From the NCBI GenBank assembly GCA_016218825.1, contig JACRCV010000116.1:1-64000 (forward strand): DNA of 64,000 nucleotides. Reading direction: 5' to 3'. Positions 7,063-50,427 of this stretch are shown here, piece after piece. Position 1 is the stretch's first letter. Every line of letters starts with the position of its first letter. The position numbers were made by a program, and so were the translations under genes. The stretch comes from Deltaproteobacteria bacterium (GTDB lineage Bacteria; Myxococcota; XYA12-FULL-58-9). The notes under the pieces were generated by a model. It was given only the letters and a program-made list of their open reading frames with translations. It was not told the origin of the DNA and did no database searches.

Positions 7063-7185
7063 CGGCGAGCCCCTTTCAGCGCGAAAGTCGTGGAGTTCCT
7101 TTCCTGTTATTATCGGTCGGGAGGAGCGAACGTTGTCGATTCGGAAGCTCGGCGAATTGCCGGAATGGAAGGGACCGGTTTCGCG

Positions 7186-7286
7186 GTGGGCCAGGCGTTC
7201 CGCGCCCTTTCTTGCGTTCCTCGCGCTCGCGGCTTCGCCTCCGCGCTGCGGTACCGGCGGGCGCGTCGGTGTCTTCGAGTCGCCGT
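7186..7286 (+). repeat. 101-nt palindromic dispersed element, copy 1
   Basis: First of five copies of a GC-rich element. Starting from a GTGRGC end, it contains a 70-nt core identical to three other copies, with terminal arms CGCGCCC and GGGCGCG enclosing an inner hairpin (CGCGG/CCGCG). The right end (after GCGCG) is more diverged than in the others. It is in near-tandem with copy 2, offset by exactly 102 nt. Non-coding context. Confidence 0.85.
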
Positions 7287-7287
7287 C

Positions 7288-7388
7288 GTGAGCAAAACGT
7301 TCCGCGCCCTTTCTTGCGTTCCTCGCGCTCGCGGCTTCGCCTCCGCGCTGCGGTACCGGCGGGCGCGACCGTGTGATCGGGTCTCGGC
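7288..7388 (+). repeat. 101-nt palindromic dispersed element, copy 2
   Basis: The core is identical to copies 1, 3 and 4, with GTGAGC at the left end and a GTGT..TCGGGTCT right end. It lies just downstream of the VIT-vWA gene (stop 7415). Together with copy 3 it brackets that gene as direct repeats. Positions 7081-7414 hold only copies 1 and 2 and no gene. Confidence 0.87.
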
Positions 7389-7414
7389 GGAGGTGCTTTG
7401 TGCGGCTGGTGGTG

Positions 7415-10087
7415 TCAGTGTGGGGCGCGGAACACGAACGGGTAGTTGACCTCGACGATGCCGCCGCCGGCCGGCGGCGCGAACTTCCAGGCTCGGATCT
7501 TGGCCAGGATACACTTCTCGACGTTCTTGTTGGGCAACGTCGACTCGACCACCAGGATCTTGGCTACCGAGCCGTTCGCGGCAATGACCCACTTCACCAC
7601 CACCTTGCCTTCGAGGGTGGGCTGGCGCTGCAGCTCGAGCTCGTAGCAGTATCGGACCTGCTGGCGGTTCTCGAGGATCACCTTCTGAATCACCTCCCGC
7701 GACAACGCCCCCATCACCACCGGCGCCGAGAACGCAACGGAGCCAACCTCCTTGTTCCTGTCACCGCTGATGCCATAGCCCTGGCCATACCCGCGGCCGC
7801 TGCCGGTGACGCCAACGCCCGCAATGCCGTAGCCACTCCCCACCCCCGCGGTCGCCGAGCCGGCGCCCGAGGTGCCGACGACGTTCGAGATGCTGCCCGA
7901 GAGAGTGCCGCCGCCGCCACCTCCCAAGATCGAGCCGGCAATCCCAGTCGAGCCGCTGCCGGCGAAGAGTCTGGTGAGCTTCTGTTTGACCGCGGCTTGG
8001 GTGGCACCGGCGCGCACCGCGTCTACGCCTTCAGGCGTCTCGACGGGTTGCACGACGGTCATCGCGTTGCCCGCGACTTTGCTCTGCCTGTCGACGGCCA
8101 CGAGGCTCGTGAAGGCGGTGACCAGGTGAAACTCGAGGCCGAGGTCGAGGATGGCGCGCTTGGCCTTTTCGGCGTCGCCGGACACGAGATCTGGCTCGAT
8201 GCTCGCGATCTTGGCGCGCGCCCAAATCGGCACCAGCGCCTGCCTCCCCGACCCCGGTTCGGCGAGCTGGACCGCGATCGGCAGCTGCACCGTCTTCTTG
8301 CCCGCGACGCCGCTGACCGTGACCGTGCCGCTCTTGGCCTCGCGGTAGCGAGCCAAGACGACGAGGGGTCGACTCGCGAAGAGGTCAGGGATCTGAGCCG
8401 GCAAGACGTCGGTGACGCCGAGCTGACCCCAGTCGACGTGGACGTCGCGGAGAATCGAGCGGTCGATGATCTGAAACGTCCGGTTCACCGCCGCCGCCGG
8501 GTCCTCCCGTAACGACGCATACAACGCGAGACCACGCCCGGCCTGCCCCAGCCCGTCGATGAGATATCGGTTCGGGCTCGAGCCGATGCCGAGCCCGAAC
8601 ACCCGGGTCTCCTGGCCGTTCGCCTTCATGGTCCCCACGTAGCGGCGAGTGGCTTCGATGATCTGCGCTTCATTGCCCACGAAGCCGTCGGTCATGAACA
8701 GCACGTAGCGTCTGCGGCCGTGCTCGACCGATGGACGGAGCGCCGCGCTGATGGCGTCCAACATGTAAGTCCCACCCCCGGCCGCGAGCCCGTTCACGAA
8801 GGCCTTTGCCGCCTGGGTGTTCGCGTCGTTGGCGGGTCGGGGACGCTCGAACAGCTGACCGGGGGCGCCGGAGAACGTGATGACGTTGAAGGTGTCGACC
8901 GGGCGCAGCATGCCGAGGGCGGTGGTCATCGCTTGCTGGCACAAGAACAGCGGCCAGCCGGACATCGAGCCGGAGACGTCGATCACGAAGACGAGCTCGC
9001 GGTCGCCGACGATCTCCTCCAGGTCGAGCTGCGGCGGCTGCACGATCAAGGTCACGAACCCGCCCTCCTTTCCTTTGTGGGTGAGCACCGTCGCCTGCGG
9101 CTCGTTGCCGTCGACCCTCCAGCGCAGCACGAAGTCGCGGTTCGGGATGTTGTCTTGCGCTTGGAGGCGCACGGTCAGCGAGTCGTTGTCCTGCAGCGCG
9201 TCGGTCTCGTGGGTCGGGGCGTCGAAGCTCGCGATCGGCAGGCCGGCGTCGATCGAGACCTCGAGCTCGATGTCGTGTCCAGATCGCAAGCCTTGCCCCA
9301 ACACCGGCGGACTGATGCGGCTCGCGTCCGGGACCAGGTCGGTGTCGCGCTTGCCGCCGGCGCCGGCGTTCGGTCTATCGAGGGGCGTGCCCGGCATGAA
9401 CCGCGGCCCGACGACCATCGGGAACACGAGCTCGTACTCGCCGGCGTCGTAGGTGAGGGTCTGGAGGTAGTGGAGGACCACCTCGATGTTGGTGCGCGGC
9501 GCGATGTTGGCGACCGACTGGGTGAAGACGTTCGGGCGCTCTTGTTCGAGCAGCGCCGCGGTGTGGCCGGCGGCTTTGGCGGCGTCGTAGGTGCGACGGG
9601 CGTCCTCGCGCTCACGGACTTCGGCCTCGATGACCCGCTGGCCGATGACCATCCGCATCGCGTGCACCGCGCTGTTCTCCGGCAGCGGGAATACGTAAAC
9701 CGCTTCGATCGGCCGCTCGTACGGATTGCCAAACCGCTGTGTCACCGTCACGTCGGCGACAAACCCCGCCACCTCGGCGCGCACGCTCGTATGCTCGAGC
9801 GGCAACGCCACGGACTTGCCGTCCTCTTTGAGCGTCAACTGCGGCAGCTCGCCTGGCTCAGTGAAGACCTGACGCTCGGCAGTCTCACGCAGCGGTGAGG
9901 CGTGACCGGGAGCCGTGCCGAGAAACACCCCGGCGAGCACGAGCCATGCTCCGACGATGGCTCTGCTGTGGGCTGAGCGTTCCGCGCCCTTTCTTGCGTT
10001 CCTCGCGCTCGCGGCTTCGCCTCCGCGCTGCGGTACCGGCGGGCGCGACAGTGTTCTTGAGTCTCCGCAGGATGCGTTCGGTTGCAT
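7415..10087 (-). CDS. VIT and vWA domain protein with AgmX/PglI-type C-terminal domain
   Basis: A large exported protein, 890 residues. The domain order is: hydrophobic signal (residues ~42-62, ending GTAPGHA), VIT domain (~80-190; 'YERPIEAVYVFPLPENSAV'), vWA with MIDAS D370-V-S-G-S, a Gly-rich linker (~700-790), and a C-terminal TonB-like domain of the AgmX/PglI type (~790-890; QVRYCYELELQRQP, GKVVVKWVIAANGSV, CILAKIRAWKF). Such proteins are common in myxobacteria, where AgmX-type domains occur in gliding and adhesion proteins; a surface role is inferred. The ATG at 10087 follows GGAGGTGA at 4-5 nt, a near-ideal ribosome site. Residues ~7-40 are encoded by a dispersed repeat (copy 3), so the signal peptide has an abnormally long basic n-region. 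Confidence 0.85.
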   Translation of the reverse strand: MQPNASCGDSRTLSRPPVPQRGGEAASARNARKGAERSAHSRAIVGAWLVLAGVFLGTAPGHASPLRETAERQVFTEPGELPQLTLKEDGKSVALPLEHTSVRAEVAGFVADVTVTQRFGNPYERPIEAVYVFPLPENSAVHAMRMVIGQRVIEAEVREREDARRTYDAAKAAGHTAALLEQERPNVFTQSVANIAPRTNIEVVLHYLQTLTYDAGEYELVFPMVVGPRFMPGTPLDRPNAGAGGKRDTDLVPDASRISPPVLGQGLRSGHDIELEVSIDAGLPIASFDAPTHETDALQDNDSLTVRLQAQDNIPNRDFVLRWRVDGNEPQATVLTHKGKEGGFVTLIVQPPQLDLEEIVGDRELVFVIDVSGSMSGWPLFLCQQAMTTALGMLRPVDTFNVITFSGAPGQLFERPRPANDANTQAAKAFVNGLAAGGGTYMLDAISAALRPSVEHGRRRYVLFMTDGFVGNEAQIIEATRRYVGTMKANGQETRVFGLGIGSSPNRYLIDGLGQAGRGLALYASLREDPAAAVNRTFQIIDRSILRDVHVDWGQLGVTDVLPAQIPDLFASRPLVVLARYREAKSGTVTVSGVAGKKTVQLPIAVQLAEPGSGRQALVPIWARAKIASIEPDLVSGDAEKAKRAILDLGLEFHLVTAFTSLVAVDRQSKVAGNAMTVVQPVETPEGVDAVRAGATQAAVKQKLTRLFAGSGSTGIAGSILGGGGGGTLSGSISNVVGTSGAGSATAGVGSGYGIAGVGVTGSGRGYGQGYGISGDRNKEVGSVAFSAPVVMGALSREVIQKVILENRQQVRYCYELELQRQPTLEGKVVVKWVIAANGSVAKILVVESTLPNKNVEKCILAKIRAWKFAPPAGGGIVEVNYPFVFRAPH
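9968..10068 (+). repeat. 101-nt palindromic element, copy 3, inside the VIT-vWA gene
   Basis: Arms CGCGCCC (9983-9989) and GGGCGCG (10041-10047); the core is identical to copies 1, 2 and 4. On the minus strand it is read as codons ~7-40 of the VIT-vWA gene, giving a basic Arg/Ala-rich peptide that begins RPPVPQRGG and ends KGAERSAH, the same peptide as inside MnmE. Only 19 nt separate its edge from the start codon. Confidence 0.88.
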
Positions 10088-20646: not shown

Positions 20647-22137
20647 ATGCTCGCAAAAACGCGCTCGCTTCACGACACCATCGTCGCCTGCGCCACCCCG
20701 CCCGGCAGCGGCGCCATCGGCATCGTGCGCCTCTCCGGCCCCGCGGCGCGGGAGATCGGACGGACGCTGTCGCCCCGCCCCGAGCCGGTCACCAGCCACC
20801 TGATGGTTCACACGACCATCCACGCCCAAGACGGCCGGGTCCTCGATGATGGCCTCGTCGTCGAGATGCACGCCCCCCACTCCTACACCGGCGAGGACTC
20901 GGTCGAGCTCCACCTGCACGGCTCCATCGCCGTCACCCAAGCCGTCATCGATGCCTGCATCGCCGGCGGTGCGCGGATGGCCGAGCCGGGCGAGTACACC
21001 CTGCGCGCCTTCCTGAACGGACGCCTGGACCTGGTCCAAGCCGAAGCCGTCGCCGACCTCATCGCCGCCCGCTCCGACCTCCAACGCGACGTCGCCGCCC
21101 GCCACCTCGAAGGCGAGCTCAGCCGCCAGCTCCACGCCCTCCTCACACCCCTCGAAACCATCCTCGCAAACTGGCGCGCCCACCTCGACTTCCCCGAACA
21201 AACCGGCGACGGCGGGGTCACGGCAGACCAAGCAGCCAAGATAGACGATGTTGGTTGTAAGATACAATCAATAGCGTCGAACTCACGTGGCAAGCTGCGC
21301 AGCGGGCTGCGGGTGGTGTTGTGTGGGGCGCCGAACGCGGGCAAGTCGACGTTGTTGAATGCGTGGGCGGGGGAGGAGCGGGTGATTGTCGACTCTGATC
21401 CTGGGACGACGCGGGATCCGGTCGAGGTCGAGCTCTTCGACGGCCCGATCCGATGGTCGGTGTGTGACACGGCTGGGATCCGAGGCGACGCCAAAGGAGT
21501 CGAAGCACGAGGCGTGACGATGGCGATGGATCGGATCCGAAGCGCCGACGTAGCGGTGTGGCTAGTGGCGGCTCCGGAGCCAGTCTGGCCCGGTCGGGAC
21601 CTGGATCCTCTTTGCGGTTACGCGACCACACGGTCGCGCCCGCCGGTACCGCAGCGCGGAGGCGAAGCCGCGAGCGCGAGGAACGCAAGAAAGGGCGCGG
21701 AACGATCAGCTCACTACGAAACCGGGCTAGCAGCTGTCCCTATGATCGTCGTCGGCACCAAGGCTGACCTCGCACCGCCCCTCGTCCGGAGAATGATCGA
21801 GACCGAGAGCCGCGAGCGGCGCTTGAAGTTCCTGGGTTGGGTCTCGTCGCGCTCCGGGGACGGGCTCGCAGCGATCCGCGAGGCGATCGTCGGCGGCCTC
21901 ATGGCCCCGGTCGACGCCGGCGTCCCGGTGCTCGTCCGGCAGCGACACATCGAAGCGTTCGCGAATGCCGGTCGCGCTATCAGCAATCTTCAGGCCGCTA
22001 TTCGGGAGGGGTTGTCGCTCGATCTCCTGTGTGTCGAGCTCGAGGAGGCCTGTGGGTGTCTGGGCGCGGTGTTGGGGCGGGACGTGGACCAGGCGGTCTT
22101 GGACCGGATCTTCTCCGAGTTCTGTCTGGGCAAATAG
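20647..22137 (+). CDS. mnmE: tRNA modification GTPase MnmE with in-frame repeat insertion
   Basis: MnmE, with MnmG, installs cmnm5/nm5 groups on wobble U34 of tRNAs. The N-terminal THF-binding domain begins HDTIVACATPPGSGAIGIVR. The G domain has G1 GAPNAGKS (227-234), the TTRD motif, G3 DTAG (274-277) and G4 TKAD (371-374; Asn of NKxD replaced by Thr). The C-terminus ends FCLGK with the catalytic Cys of the FC(I/L)GK signature. Length is 496 residues against a family norm near 450-460. The excess is a repeat element (copy 4) read as residues ~323-356, between G3 and G4. The frame is intact, so the gene is probably functional, with the extra peptide in a surface loop. The ATG at 20647 is chosen because it places HDTI at the family position. 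mnmG starts 5 nt after the stop. Confidence 0.93.
   Translation: MLAKTRSLHDTIVACATPPGSGAIGIVRLSGPAAREIGRTLSPRPEPVTSHLMVHTTIHAQDGRVLDDGLVVEMHAPHSYTGEDSVELHLHGSIAVTQAVIDACIAGGARMAEPGEYTLRAFLNGRLDLVQAEAVADLIAARSDLQRDVAARHLEGELSRQLHALLTPLETILANWRAHLDFPEQTGDGGVTADQAAKIDDVGCKIQSIASNSRGKLRSGLRVVLCGAPNAGKSTLLNAWAGEERVIVDSDPGTTRDPVEVELFDGPIRWSVCDTAGIRGDAKGVEARGVTMAMDRIRSADVAVWLVAAPEPVWPGRDLDPLCGYATTRSRPPVPQRGGEAASARNARKGAERSAHYETGLAAVPMIVVGTKADLAPPLVRRMIETESRERRLKFLGWVSSRSGDGLAAIREAIVGGLMAPVDAGVPVLVRQRHIEAFANAGRAISNLQAAIREGLSLDLLCVELEEACGCLGAVLGRDVDQAVLDRIFSEFCLGK
21614..21714 (-). repeat. 101-nt palindromic element, copy 4, inside mnmE
   Basis: Reverse orientation; the 70-nt core is identical to copies 1-3, and both outer flanks (GTGAGCTGAT at 21714 and the GTGTGGTCG right end) are conserved, fixing the element's edges. 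It contributes about 34 codons to the GTPase domain and is read in the same frame as copy 3. Confidence 0.9.
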
Positions 22138-22142
22138 CGCCG

Positions 22143-24014
22143 ATGATCTTCGACGTCGTCGTGGTGGGTGCGGGACACGCGGGCTGTGAGGCGGCGCTTG
22201 CGGCGTCGAGACTCGGCGCCCGGGTTGCGCTCGTGACGCTGCGGCGGGACCGGATCGCACAGATGAGCTGCAATCCAGCCATCGGGGGCGTCGGCAAGGG
22301 CCATCTGGTTCGCGAAATCGATGCGCTGGGGGGCGCGATGGGGCGAGTGGCAGACGCCACCGGCATTCAGTTCCGGCGCTTGAACGCCAGCCGCGGACCC
22401 GCCGTTCAGTCCACGCGCTGCCAATCCGACTCCGACCTCTACCGCGAAGCGATGACCGCCATGATCGCGGACGCCCCCGGGGTGACGCTCGTCGAAGATG
22501 AAGTCTCCGAGGTCCTGGTCGAGGCCGGGACCGTCCGTGGCGTGGTCGGGATGCGATCCAGAACCCTCCAGGCGCGGGCGGTGGTCGTAACCACTGGAAC
22601 TTTCTTGAATGGTCTGTGTCATGTCGGGGCGGAGCAGTTTCGGGCCGGGCGGATGGGCGACGCCGTTGCGACGCACTTGTCTGATTCATTGAGGAAACTC
22701 GGCGTGGAGCTCCTCCGCTTCAAGACCGGGACCACGCCGCGGCTCGACGTCGCGAGCATCAATTGGAATATCCTAGAGAAACAGACCGGAGACGACCCAC
22801 GTCCTCGCTTCTCTTTTGACGAGGTCGAGAACGCGCTGCCGCAGGTTTGTTGCCACGTCACCTACACCAACCCGGGCACCCACGAGATCATACGCGCGAA
22901 CCTCTCCCGCTCGCCGTTGTATCAAGGTGTAATCAAGGGGCTAGGTCCGCGGTATTGCCCGTCTATCGAAGACAAGGTCGTGCGGTTTGCGGACCGGGAC
23001 CGGCATCAGATCTTTCTGGAGCCGGAGGGCTTGACCTCGAACCGCATCTACCCGAACGGCCTGTCCACCAGCCTCCCCCGCGACGTTCAGGACGCCTTCC
23101 TCCGCACCCTCCCCGGCCTCGAGAAGGCCGTCGTACTTCAGCACGGGTACGCGGTCGAGTACGACTTCGCGCCGCCCACCCAGCTCACCGCCGCGCTGAT
23201 GGTCAAGAAGGTCCCAGGGCTCTTCCTGGCCGGGCAAATCAACGGCACCTCCGGCTACGAAGAAGCGGGCGCCCAGGGGCTCGTCGCCGGGCTCAACGCG
23301 GTGCGCTTCGACGGCCGGCAGGAGCCGGCGATACTCACCAGAAAAGACGCGTACATCGGTGTCATGATCGACGACCTCGTGACCCGCGGCGTGGACGAGC
23401 CCTACCGCGTCTTCACCTCCCGCGCCGAGCACCGGCTCACCCTGCGCGAGAGCAACGCCGAAGAGCGGCTCTGGCGCCTGGCAAGCGACTGGGGCCTGCT
23501 GCCGCCCGAACGACTCCAGCGCGCCACCGTGCGTCACGACGCCATCCAGGCATTGCGACTCTTGCTCGAACGCTCGACAATCAGCGCGTCGTTCTGCGAG
23601 GAGCTCGGGGTGGACGCGACCACGCGCAGCGGCACCGGCGCCACGACCATTCTTCGAAGTCCGGGCGTGCATCTCGACGACGTCCTCGCGGCGATCGACC
23701 CCGACGGCACCCTCGGCACCGACTCCTGGGCCGCCCCGGTGCGGACCCTCGTGGAGGAGGAGATCAAGTATCACGGCTACATCGAGCGCGAGCGCCGCGC
23801 AATCGATAGGCTTCAGGAGCTGGAGGCGGTGAAGCTCCCCGCCTCGCTGAACTACGCGGAGACGCCCGGGTTGTCGCGGGAGGTCCGGGAGAAGCTCACG
23901 GCCGTCAGGCCCGGAACTCTGGGTCAGGCGAGCCGGGTCCCGGGGATCACGCCCGCCGCGCTCGCGCTGTTGCGGGTCCACGTGCAGCGGATCGCGCGCA
24001 AGCCGGCGCTGTGA
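22143..24014 (+). CDS. mnmG: tRNA uridine-5-carboxymethylaminomethyl modification enzyme MnmG (GidA)
   Basis: FAD-dependent partner of MnmE in wobble-uridine modification. At 623 residues it matches the family length. The N-terminus MIFDVVVVGAGHAGCEAALA holds the dinucleotide-binding GxGxxG; SCNPAIGGVGKGHLVREIDA is the MnmG signature; and the C-terminal part has the conserved RAEHRLTLRESNA and the helical tRNA-binding region (IERERRAIDRLQELE). The ATG at 22143 lies 5 nt after the mnmE stop, indicating one transcript. Downstream come two parS sites, then rsmG. Nothing odd in the sequence. Confidence 0.96.
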   Translation: MIFDVVVVGAGHAGCEAALAASRLGARVALVTLRRDRIAQMSCNPAIGGVGKGHLVREIDALGGAMGRVADATGIQFRRLNASRGPAVQSTRCQSDSDLYREAMTAMIADAPGVTLVEDEVSEVLVEAGTVRGVVGMRSRTLQARAVVVTTGTFLNGLCHVGAEQFRAGRMGDAVATHLSDSLRKLGVELLRFKTGTTPRLDVASINWNILEKQTGDDPRPRFSFDEVENALPQVCCHVTYTNPGTHEIIRANLSRSPLYQGVIKGLGPRYCPSIEDKVVRFADRDRHQIFLEPEGLTSNRIYPNGLSTSLPRDVQDAFLRTLPGLEKAVVLQHGYAVEYDFAPPTQLTAALMVKKVPGLFLAGQINGTSGYEEAGAQGLVAGLNAVRFDGRQEPAILTRKDAYIGVMIDDLVTRGVDEPYRVFTSRAEHRLTLRESNAEERLWRLASDWGLLPPERLQRATVRHDAIQALRLLLERSTISASFCEELGVDATTRSGTGATTILRSPGVHLDDVLAAIDPDGTLGTDSWAAPVRTLVEEEIKYHGYIERERRAIDRLQELEAVKLPASLNYAETPGLSREVREKLTAVRPGTLGQASRVPGITPAALALLRVHVQRIARKPAL

Positions 24015-24059: not shown

Positions 24060-24656
24060 ATGAGTGAGGCGTTGCGCTCGGCGATCGCCGACCTCGAGCT
24101 CGAAGACCCGGACCGGGTGGTCGGTCTGCTCGCGGCCCATTGGGCGCTCGTCAAGACGTGGAACGAGAGGGTCAACCTCACTTCGATCCTCGACGACGGT
24201 GAAGCGGCGTGGCTCCATTATCGCGACAGTCTGGAGGCGCTCCGGGTTTTGGTTCCCGGCGAGGTGGTCGATCTCGGGTCGGGGGCGGGGTATCCGGGGA
24301 TTCCCCTCGCGATCGCAGAGCCGGGTCGTCGGGTGACGCTGGTTGAGCCGCGGCGCAAGCGGGCGTCGTTTCTGGAGACCGTTGCGGCGCGGCTTGGGCT
24401 TTCGAACGTGGTCGTGGTGGTGGGGCGCTCGGACGACGAGCCGGCGGTGCGGGCGGCGAACGTGGTGACGCGGGCGACGTTCTCGGGGGTGGCCGAGCTC
24501 ACGGCCTGCAAGAAGTGGCTGGCACCTCACGGGGCACCTCACGGGCAGCTCATCGCGTATCGCTCGGCGGCGAGTGGGGATCCGGCGTCGCGGGTGCATC
24601 GTTACGGCCTTCGTGGCGAGCAGCGCATACTCGAGATCTGGACCTCCGTGAGCTGA
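24060..24656 (+). CDS. rsmG: 16S rRNA (guanine-527 N7) methyltransferase RsmG
   Basis: SAM-dependent methyltransferase for 16S rRNA G527 (E. coli numbering). 198 residues. Features: WNERVNLTS near residue 37, the SAM-binding motif [18 protein letters not shown], then [13 protein letters not shown], and the C-terminal [10 protein letters not shown] region where most homologues have 'l....lkpgG'. GAGGAG precedes the ATG. The last two residues and the TGA stop come from repeat copy 5, which starts at 24648. The predicted C-terminus ([11 protein letters not shown]) still aligns with the family's 'ger.l.vi' end, so function should be kept. Confidence 0.94.
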
Positions 24657-24746
24657 TCGTTCCGCGCCCTTTCTTGCGTTCCTCGCGCTCGCGGCTTCGC
24701 CTCCGCTGCAGCACCGGCGGGCGCGACCTTGTTTCCAGGTTCTCGC
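24648..24746 (+). repeat. Palindromic element, copy 5 (99 nt)
   Basis: Same ends as the other copies (GTGAGCTGATCG on the left). The core differs by a 2-nt deletion and a few substitutions around 24700-24715, removing the KpnI-like GGTACC present in the other four. The left end overlaps the rsmG stop codon. Confidence 0.82.
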
Positions 24747-50333: not shown

Positions 50334-50360
50334 CCCCTCGCCCCACGCGGGGGCGAGGGG
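50334..50360. terminator. Bidirectional terminator-like hairpin
   Basis: An 11-bp perfect stem CCCCTCGCCCC (50334-50344) / GGGGCGAGGGG (50350-50360) with a 5-nt loop lies between convergent genes (stops 50317 and 50428). It is followed by a G-rich stretch. No T-tract, but strong structure in both directions. Confidence 0.6.
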
Positions 50361-50427
50361 CAGGGGAGTGGGGGTGGGGAGCGCCGCCGCACCGGCGGCG
50401 CGGGAATCAAAGCAGGCGTAGAGCACT

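Follow-up and report, generated by a model that had tools for sequence, protein, structure and literature searches.

A MITE-like repeat with CTAG ends lies in frame within the mnmE gene of a GC-rich bacterium

The window analysed here, a stretch of 64,000 nucleotides from a Deltaproteobacteria bacterium assembly (GCA_016218825.1, contig JACRCV010000116.1), carries an mnmE gene whose reading frame contains a block of repeated DNA. The features of this locus are as follows.

20647-22137, plus strand: mnmE (trmE), an open reading frame of 496 amino acids from ATG that carries the element in frame
21601-21730, plus strand: a full element copy of the long type (130 bp), from the alignment of copies and the 130-bp consensus
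21601-21632, plus strand: left arm, which starts with CTGG (CTAG in the consensus), is diverged and holds no stop in the mnmE frame
21633-21704, plus strand: core of 72 bp, near-invariant among copies by per-position identity
21705-21730, plus strand: right arm, which ends in CTAG at 21727-21730
22143-24014, plus strand: an mnmG (gidA)-like gene, the partner of MnmE, downstream of mnmE (from sequence and open reading frame)

The mnmE product has Pfam matches to TrmE_N, MnmE_helical and the MMR_HSR1 G domain, its best structure matches in the PDB are MnmE entries (e.g., 9hip, 3geh and 1xzp), and the gene at 20647-22137 is the only one in the genome with a whole-length MnmE match. Motifs G1 (GAPNAGKST), G2, G3 (DTAG, residues 274-277) and G4 (TKAD, residues 371-374) are all kept, and the block that matches the repeat is positioned between G3 and G4. 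A sequence-only reading of the window had proposed that a repeat-derived block sits in frame in the G domain of MnmE, and that the frame is preserved with the C-terminal FCLGK motif intact. The copies elsewhere in the genome and the retained motifs confirm these proposals. The boundaries given at that time, 21614-21714 (101 bp), are too narrow; the outer arms also repeat, and the unit spans 130 bp. Its net contribution to mnmE is 126 bp, or 42 codons at about residues 319-361, which is the 130-bp unit with CTAG (or its TA) counted once.

Within the window, the block matches other copies as inverted-repeat pairs I1 through I5 at 87-100% identity, except for a diverged arm of I5 at 75%. Its best match to the 130-bp consensus spans positions 1-130 at 92% identity. 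A search of the genome with the block yields 38 matches, among which the best other copy has an E value of 2.9e-40, and chance likeness is therefore excluded. The comparison with relatives points the same way. MnmE from the same genus, which is only about 56% identical to the protein here, has 454 rather than 496 residues and is without exactly the 42-residue block, and the block is likewise missing from the orthologues (449-453 residues) of another five genomes in the order. At the insert site the same-genus protein reads PVWP-DAEVVGPN-LWVLGS, versus PVWPGRD[42 aa]L-AAVP-MIVVGT in the present one. The 42-residue gap therefore explains the whole length excess over the nearest relative; the earlier attribution of the excess to the insert was correct, and its estimate of about 34 residues was low. 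An insert of equal length and unrelated sequence is present in MnmE neither from the same genus nor from the order; some distant members of the phylum do carry other insertions, but these are located after G4 (e.g., L081 and L082).

Could the block nevertheless be an ordinary, lineage-specific loop of MnmE, with the repeats having arisen from it or resembling it by chance? The G3-G4 region is length-variable across bacteria, as this explanation would have it. However, the consensus to which the block is so closely related recurs at dozens of sites, most of them intergenic, the order-level relatives are short at this point, and another copy resides in an unrelated gene. We accord an ordinary loop next to no probability, and for practical purposes this reading is refuted. 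An assembly artefact, in which a repeat was wrongly joined into mnmE during short-read assembly, might be suspected because the genome is a draft of 121 contigs and repeats this long can cause misjoins. Yet the two halves of one mnmE gene lie on either side of the copy and share a frame, and the mnmG-like partner gene follows, which supports a contiguous locus. Moreover, the arms of the mnmE copy have a sequence of their own in which the frame stays open, whereas a misjoin would link different loci. An artefact is thus very improbable. Judged by these sequence comparisons, the block is a true, well-bounded, in-frame insertion of a mobile repeat.

An AlphaFold model of MnmE (31 homologues, mean pLDDT 82) gives values below 50 to residues 312-319 and 324-360, which lie between strands 302-308 and 366-371. 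Distant MnmE homologues from named genomes served for the alignment behind the structure. On this model, a disordered surface loop is the best reading of the insert, located where the connection in order-level relatives is very short. We infer that the insert-bearing MnmE remains a working enzyme. The mnmE codons just 5′ of the insert (window positions 21220-21600) receive low scores from the codon model of the host and include an unusually AT-rich stretch near window positions 21235-21285, although the protein aligns well with those of relatives.

The mnmE block belongs to a family of about 35-38 dispersed copies, each 128-130 bp in length and with no capacity to encode a transposase, in a genome of 6.5 Mb. 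Additional features in the window include the following.

7173-7389, minus strand: a tandem pair of copies, immediately downstream of the VIT-domain gene
9965-10063, minus strand: a copy at the N-terminus of the VIT-domain open reading frame (7415-10087), in the same peptide frame, with the start codon not proven
24646-24732, minus strand: a short-type copy at the 3′ end of the open reading frame 24060-24656
50335-50422: a diverged copy of a second family, described below

No copies were found in 7 other genomes of the order. Of the 195 phylum genomes searched, the 194 besides the host (among them the one from the same genus) yield only short GC-rich chance matches whose aligned letters are unlike the core. 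In a search of Rfam, no match in the window reaches the gathering score, and none in the element has E <= 1.

In the consensus, CTAG stands at both ends, which take the form CTAGA[CG]C[GC]NTTTCGCC. These ends constitute an imperfect terminal inverted repeat of 16 bp (13/16 including CTAG); beyond CTAG, 9 of 12 positions pair, a level reached by 18 of 20,000 shuffles. In two genes the net length, as established by comparison at the protein level, is that of the element minus 4. The label "palindromic" used in the sequence-only reading is a weak one, given fold z-scores of +0.5 and 0.0 (mnmE copy) and -0.8 (consensus), and the hairpin reading is rejected for this family. A MITE-like element with CTAG termini and imperfect inverted repeats of 16 bp is the better description. 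An IS630-type DDE_3 transposase is absent from the genome, a 121-contig draft in which insertion sequences may be lost, and the ends of the single DDE_Tnp_1 gene do not match those of the element; within these two families, no cognate transposase was found. From the sequences we infer past transposition by a transposase, and duplication of the target.

The copies have not diverged evenly. Across 34 of them, the mismatch relative to the consensus is 24% in the arms and 1.6% in the 72-bp core, a core value calculated without the four positions that distinguish the long type from the short. Variation in the arms is about 15 times that in the core, and the contrast is alike in genic and intergenic copies. 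Simple decay after insertion does not explain this pattern, since decay should not follow such a boundary. The contrast may come from constraint on the core, from conversion among copies, or from exchange of arms between families.

Most copies are intergenic and, according to a codon-usage model, often lie between convergent genes. At 20 of 42 facing ends, the stop codon of the incoming gene is exactly the TAG of the element's CTAG end; among 1,234 positions drawn at random from these loci, the coincidence was seen 0 times. CTAG is itself scarce in the window (14 observed versus 63 expected). A scan with the end sequences brought to light a second family, about 128 bp in length, that has like ends (CTAGACCGTTTTCGCC...ACGGTCTAG) and a different core, and whose consensus is strongly palindromic (fold z -5.5). 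Stop coincidence occurs at 13 of 16 loci of this second family, three of them on both sides; a few loci are end fragments. Besides the diverged copy in the window, its copies are at L154-L161, L164, L165 and L169, and none was seen inside a gene among its loci. Sequence like that of the second family adjoins copies of the first directly upstream at L112, L122, L131 and L132, which suggests composite or nested insertions. L142 is a chimera whose left part resembles the second family and whose right end is of the first.

These distributions bring forward another explanation, namely that the element is a conserved 3′-end signal of the REP/BIME kind, for instance one that binds a protein or acts as a terminator between convergent genes, and that the mnmE copy is a stray. 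The strong bias toward gene 3′ ends, together with a near-invariant core flanked by variable arms, would suit such a signal. However, insertions that are exact relative to relatives, CTAG at both ends, inverted ends common to a second family, and genic copies all argue for mobility. We therefore hold a signal without mobility to be unlikely, whereas past mobility of the element would not conflict with a functional core.

A second in-frame copy is carried by the RluA-family pseudouridine synthase gene at L137 (Pfam PseudoU_synth_2), which has 41 extra codons; the same-genus homologue does not have the 41 residues at the element position. This copy measures 127 bp (123 bp net) and derives from the 128-bp form by an extra 1-nt deletion. 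The 128-bp form would shift the frame, and the net length is a multiple of three only because of that deletion; selection on the frame is well supported by this compensating change. The mnmE and L137 copies are the only two in-gene cases proven against relatives. A CarD-like gene (L119) has a copy at or near its N-terminus with an uncertain start, and like the VIT-domain gene it was left out of the proven cases. L138 remains open across the element, also in this frame, and has no relative among 10 genomes. The glycosyltransferase gene L141 was rejected as a genic case, as it retains only a 50-bp remnant and has about 6-8 extra residues versus the same-genus protein. The genic copies share one peptide frame, and their peptides are close to each other except for that of the RluA-family copy, in which the reading changes midway. 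Copies enclose the VIT-domain gene (7415-10087, minus strand), with the tandem pair after its stop and a single copy at its N-terminus; the latter would extend the region before the signal peptide of the protein.

How might such a repeat come to lie both at gene ends and within conserved genes? Very probably, CTAG was the insertion target of a non-autonomous, MITE-like repeat 128-130 bp long, whose genic survivors are those in the CTA|G phase with a length of 3n. Such an insertion would leave each end of the element with CTAG, or with the TA at its centre. In the C|TAG phase the site would already be a stop codon, and the duplicated end would supply the neighboring gene with its stop again. 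Most surviving copies would be at gene ends because CTAG is rare here and often serves as a stop in this phase. In the CT|AG phase, the consensus yields a stop within seven codons. In the CTA|G phase, no stop interrupts the 130-bp consensus in either orientation, and the net gain is 126 bp. A frameshift results from the 128-bp form, whereas the second family meets a stop in this phase and is not 3n in length; the long type is alone in combining a 3n length with an absence of stops. From these properties, genic survivors are predicted to be in the CTA|G phase and 3n, which matches both proven cases. In mnmE, the insertion would have hit the loop between the post-G3 strand and the G4 strand, which is short and variable in relatives; this would be why the GTPase fold, the motifs and FCLGK remain.

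More tentatively, and with somewhat more doubt than belief, we propose that gene stops, including CTAGs common to convergent genes, have served this CTAG-targeting repeat as a safe haven, and that its 72-bp core may be kept by a function of its own. The 130-bp form, being translatable in the CTA|G phase, might then also enter conserved genes, where it would be read as a peptide of 42 residues, which would make this a second, independent system resembling that of RPEs.

In-frame insertion of repeats into conserved enzymes is tied mainly to Rickettsia and Wolbachia. The mnmE case documents such an insertion against relatives in a bacterium with a large, GC-rich genome, and the genic insertions that survive are predicted by a simple rule of CTAG target, CTA|G phase and 3n length. 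The stop-codon coincidence indicates that the choice of target can render an element nearly harmless, a proposition open to testing in any genome with CTAG-targeting elements. A 2024 review regarded in-frame repeat insertion outside Rickettsia and Wolbachia as conceivable (PMC10969869).

The RPE and WPE sequences of Rickettsia and Wolbachia share with the present family the insertion of a repeat of ~100-150 bp in frame in genes for conserved proteins, the use of one peptide frame, and a solvent-exposed placement. The similar size (RPE 105-146 bp) and the tRNA-related targets (PMC3767692; PMC2229807) likewise recall a true Rickettsia-type palindromic element, either acquired or shared by descent, which is the type that the sequence-only reading had named. 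Unlike RPE and WPE, which reside in reduced Rickettsiales genomes, the present family is found in only one genome of the 195 searched in the phylum, and that genome is GC-rich and 6.5 Mb in size. The present family also has no strong hairpin, carries short inverted ends, is CTAG-ended and CTAG-targeted, and has most of its copies at gene ends. Thus, the element would appear to work like RPE insertions (PMC3767692; PMC10969869), whereas its fold, ends and location set it apart from RPE. Membership is not supported, and we consider it extremely improbable.

Other mobile repeats offer partial parallels. MITEPsy1 of Pseudomonas syringae is a 100-bp MITE that targets CTAG or YTAA with a 4-nt duplication, and an IS5-type origin has been proposed for it (PMC3189936). 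In a gene, however, MITEPsy1 shifts the frame (104 nt), whereas the present long type adds 126 nt in frame. The end sequences of the two are unlike (GGAAGGTCTGAAAAAGCC versus AGCCTTTTCGCC), and, in contrast to the IS5 type proposed for MITEPsy1, searches for DDE_3 and DDE_Tnp_1 disclosed no parent insertion sequence for the present family. The Correia/NEMIS repeats of Neisseria comprise two related MITE species, one ORF-compatible and genic and the other stop-rich and intergenic (PMC2229807). This split resembles that between the long type and the second family here, a likeness of pattern, although the present family, unlike Correia/NEMIS, has few genic copies. Finally, REP/BIME sequences are extragenic palindromes of 20-40 bp, whereas the present element measures 128-130 bp and folds weakly. 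The location of REP/BIME at gene 3′ ends is one that the present element shares.
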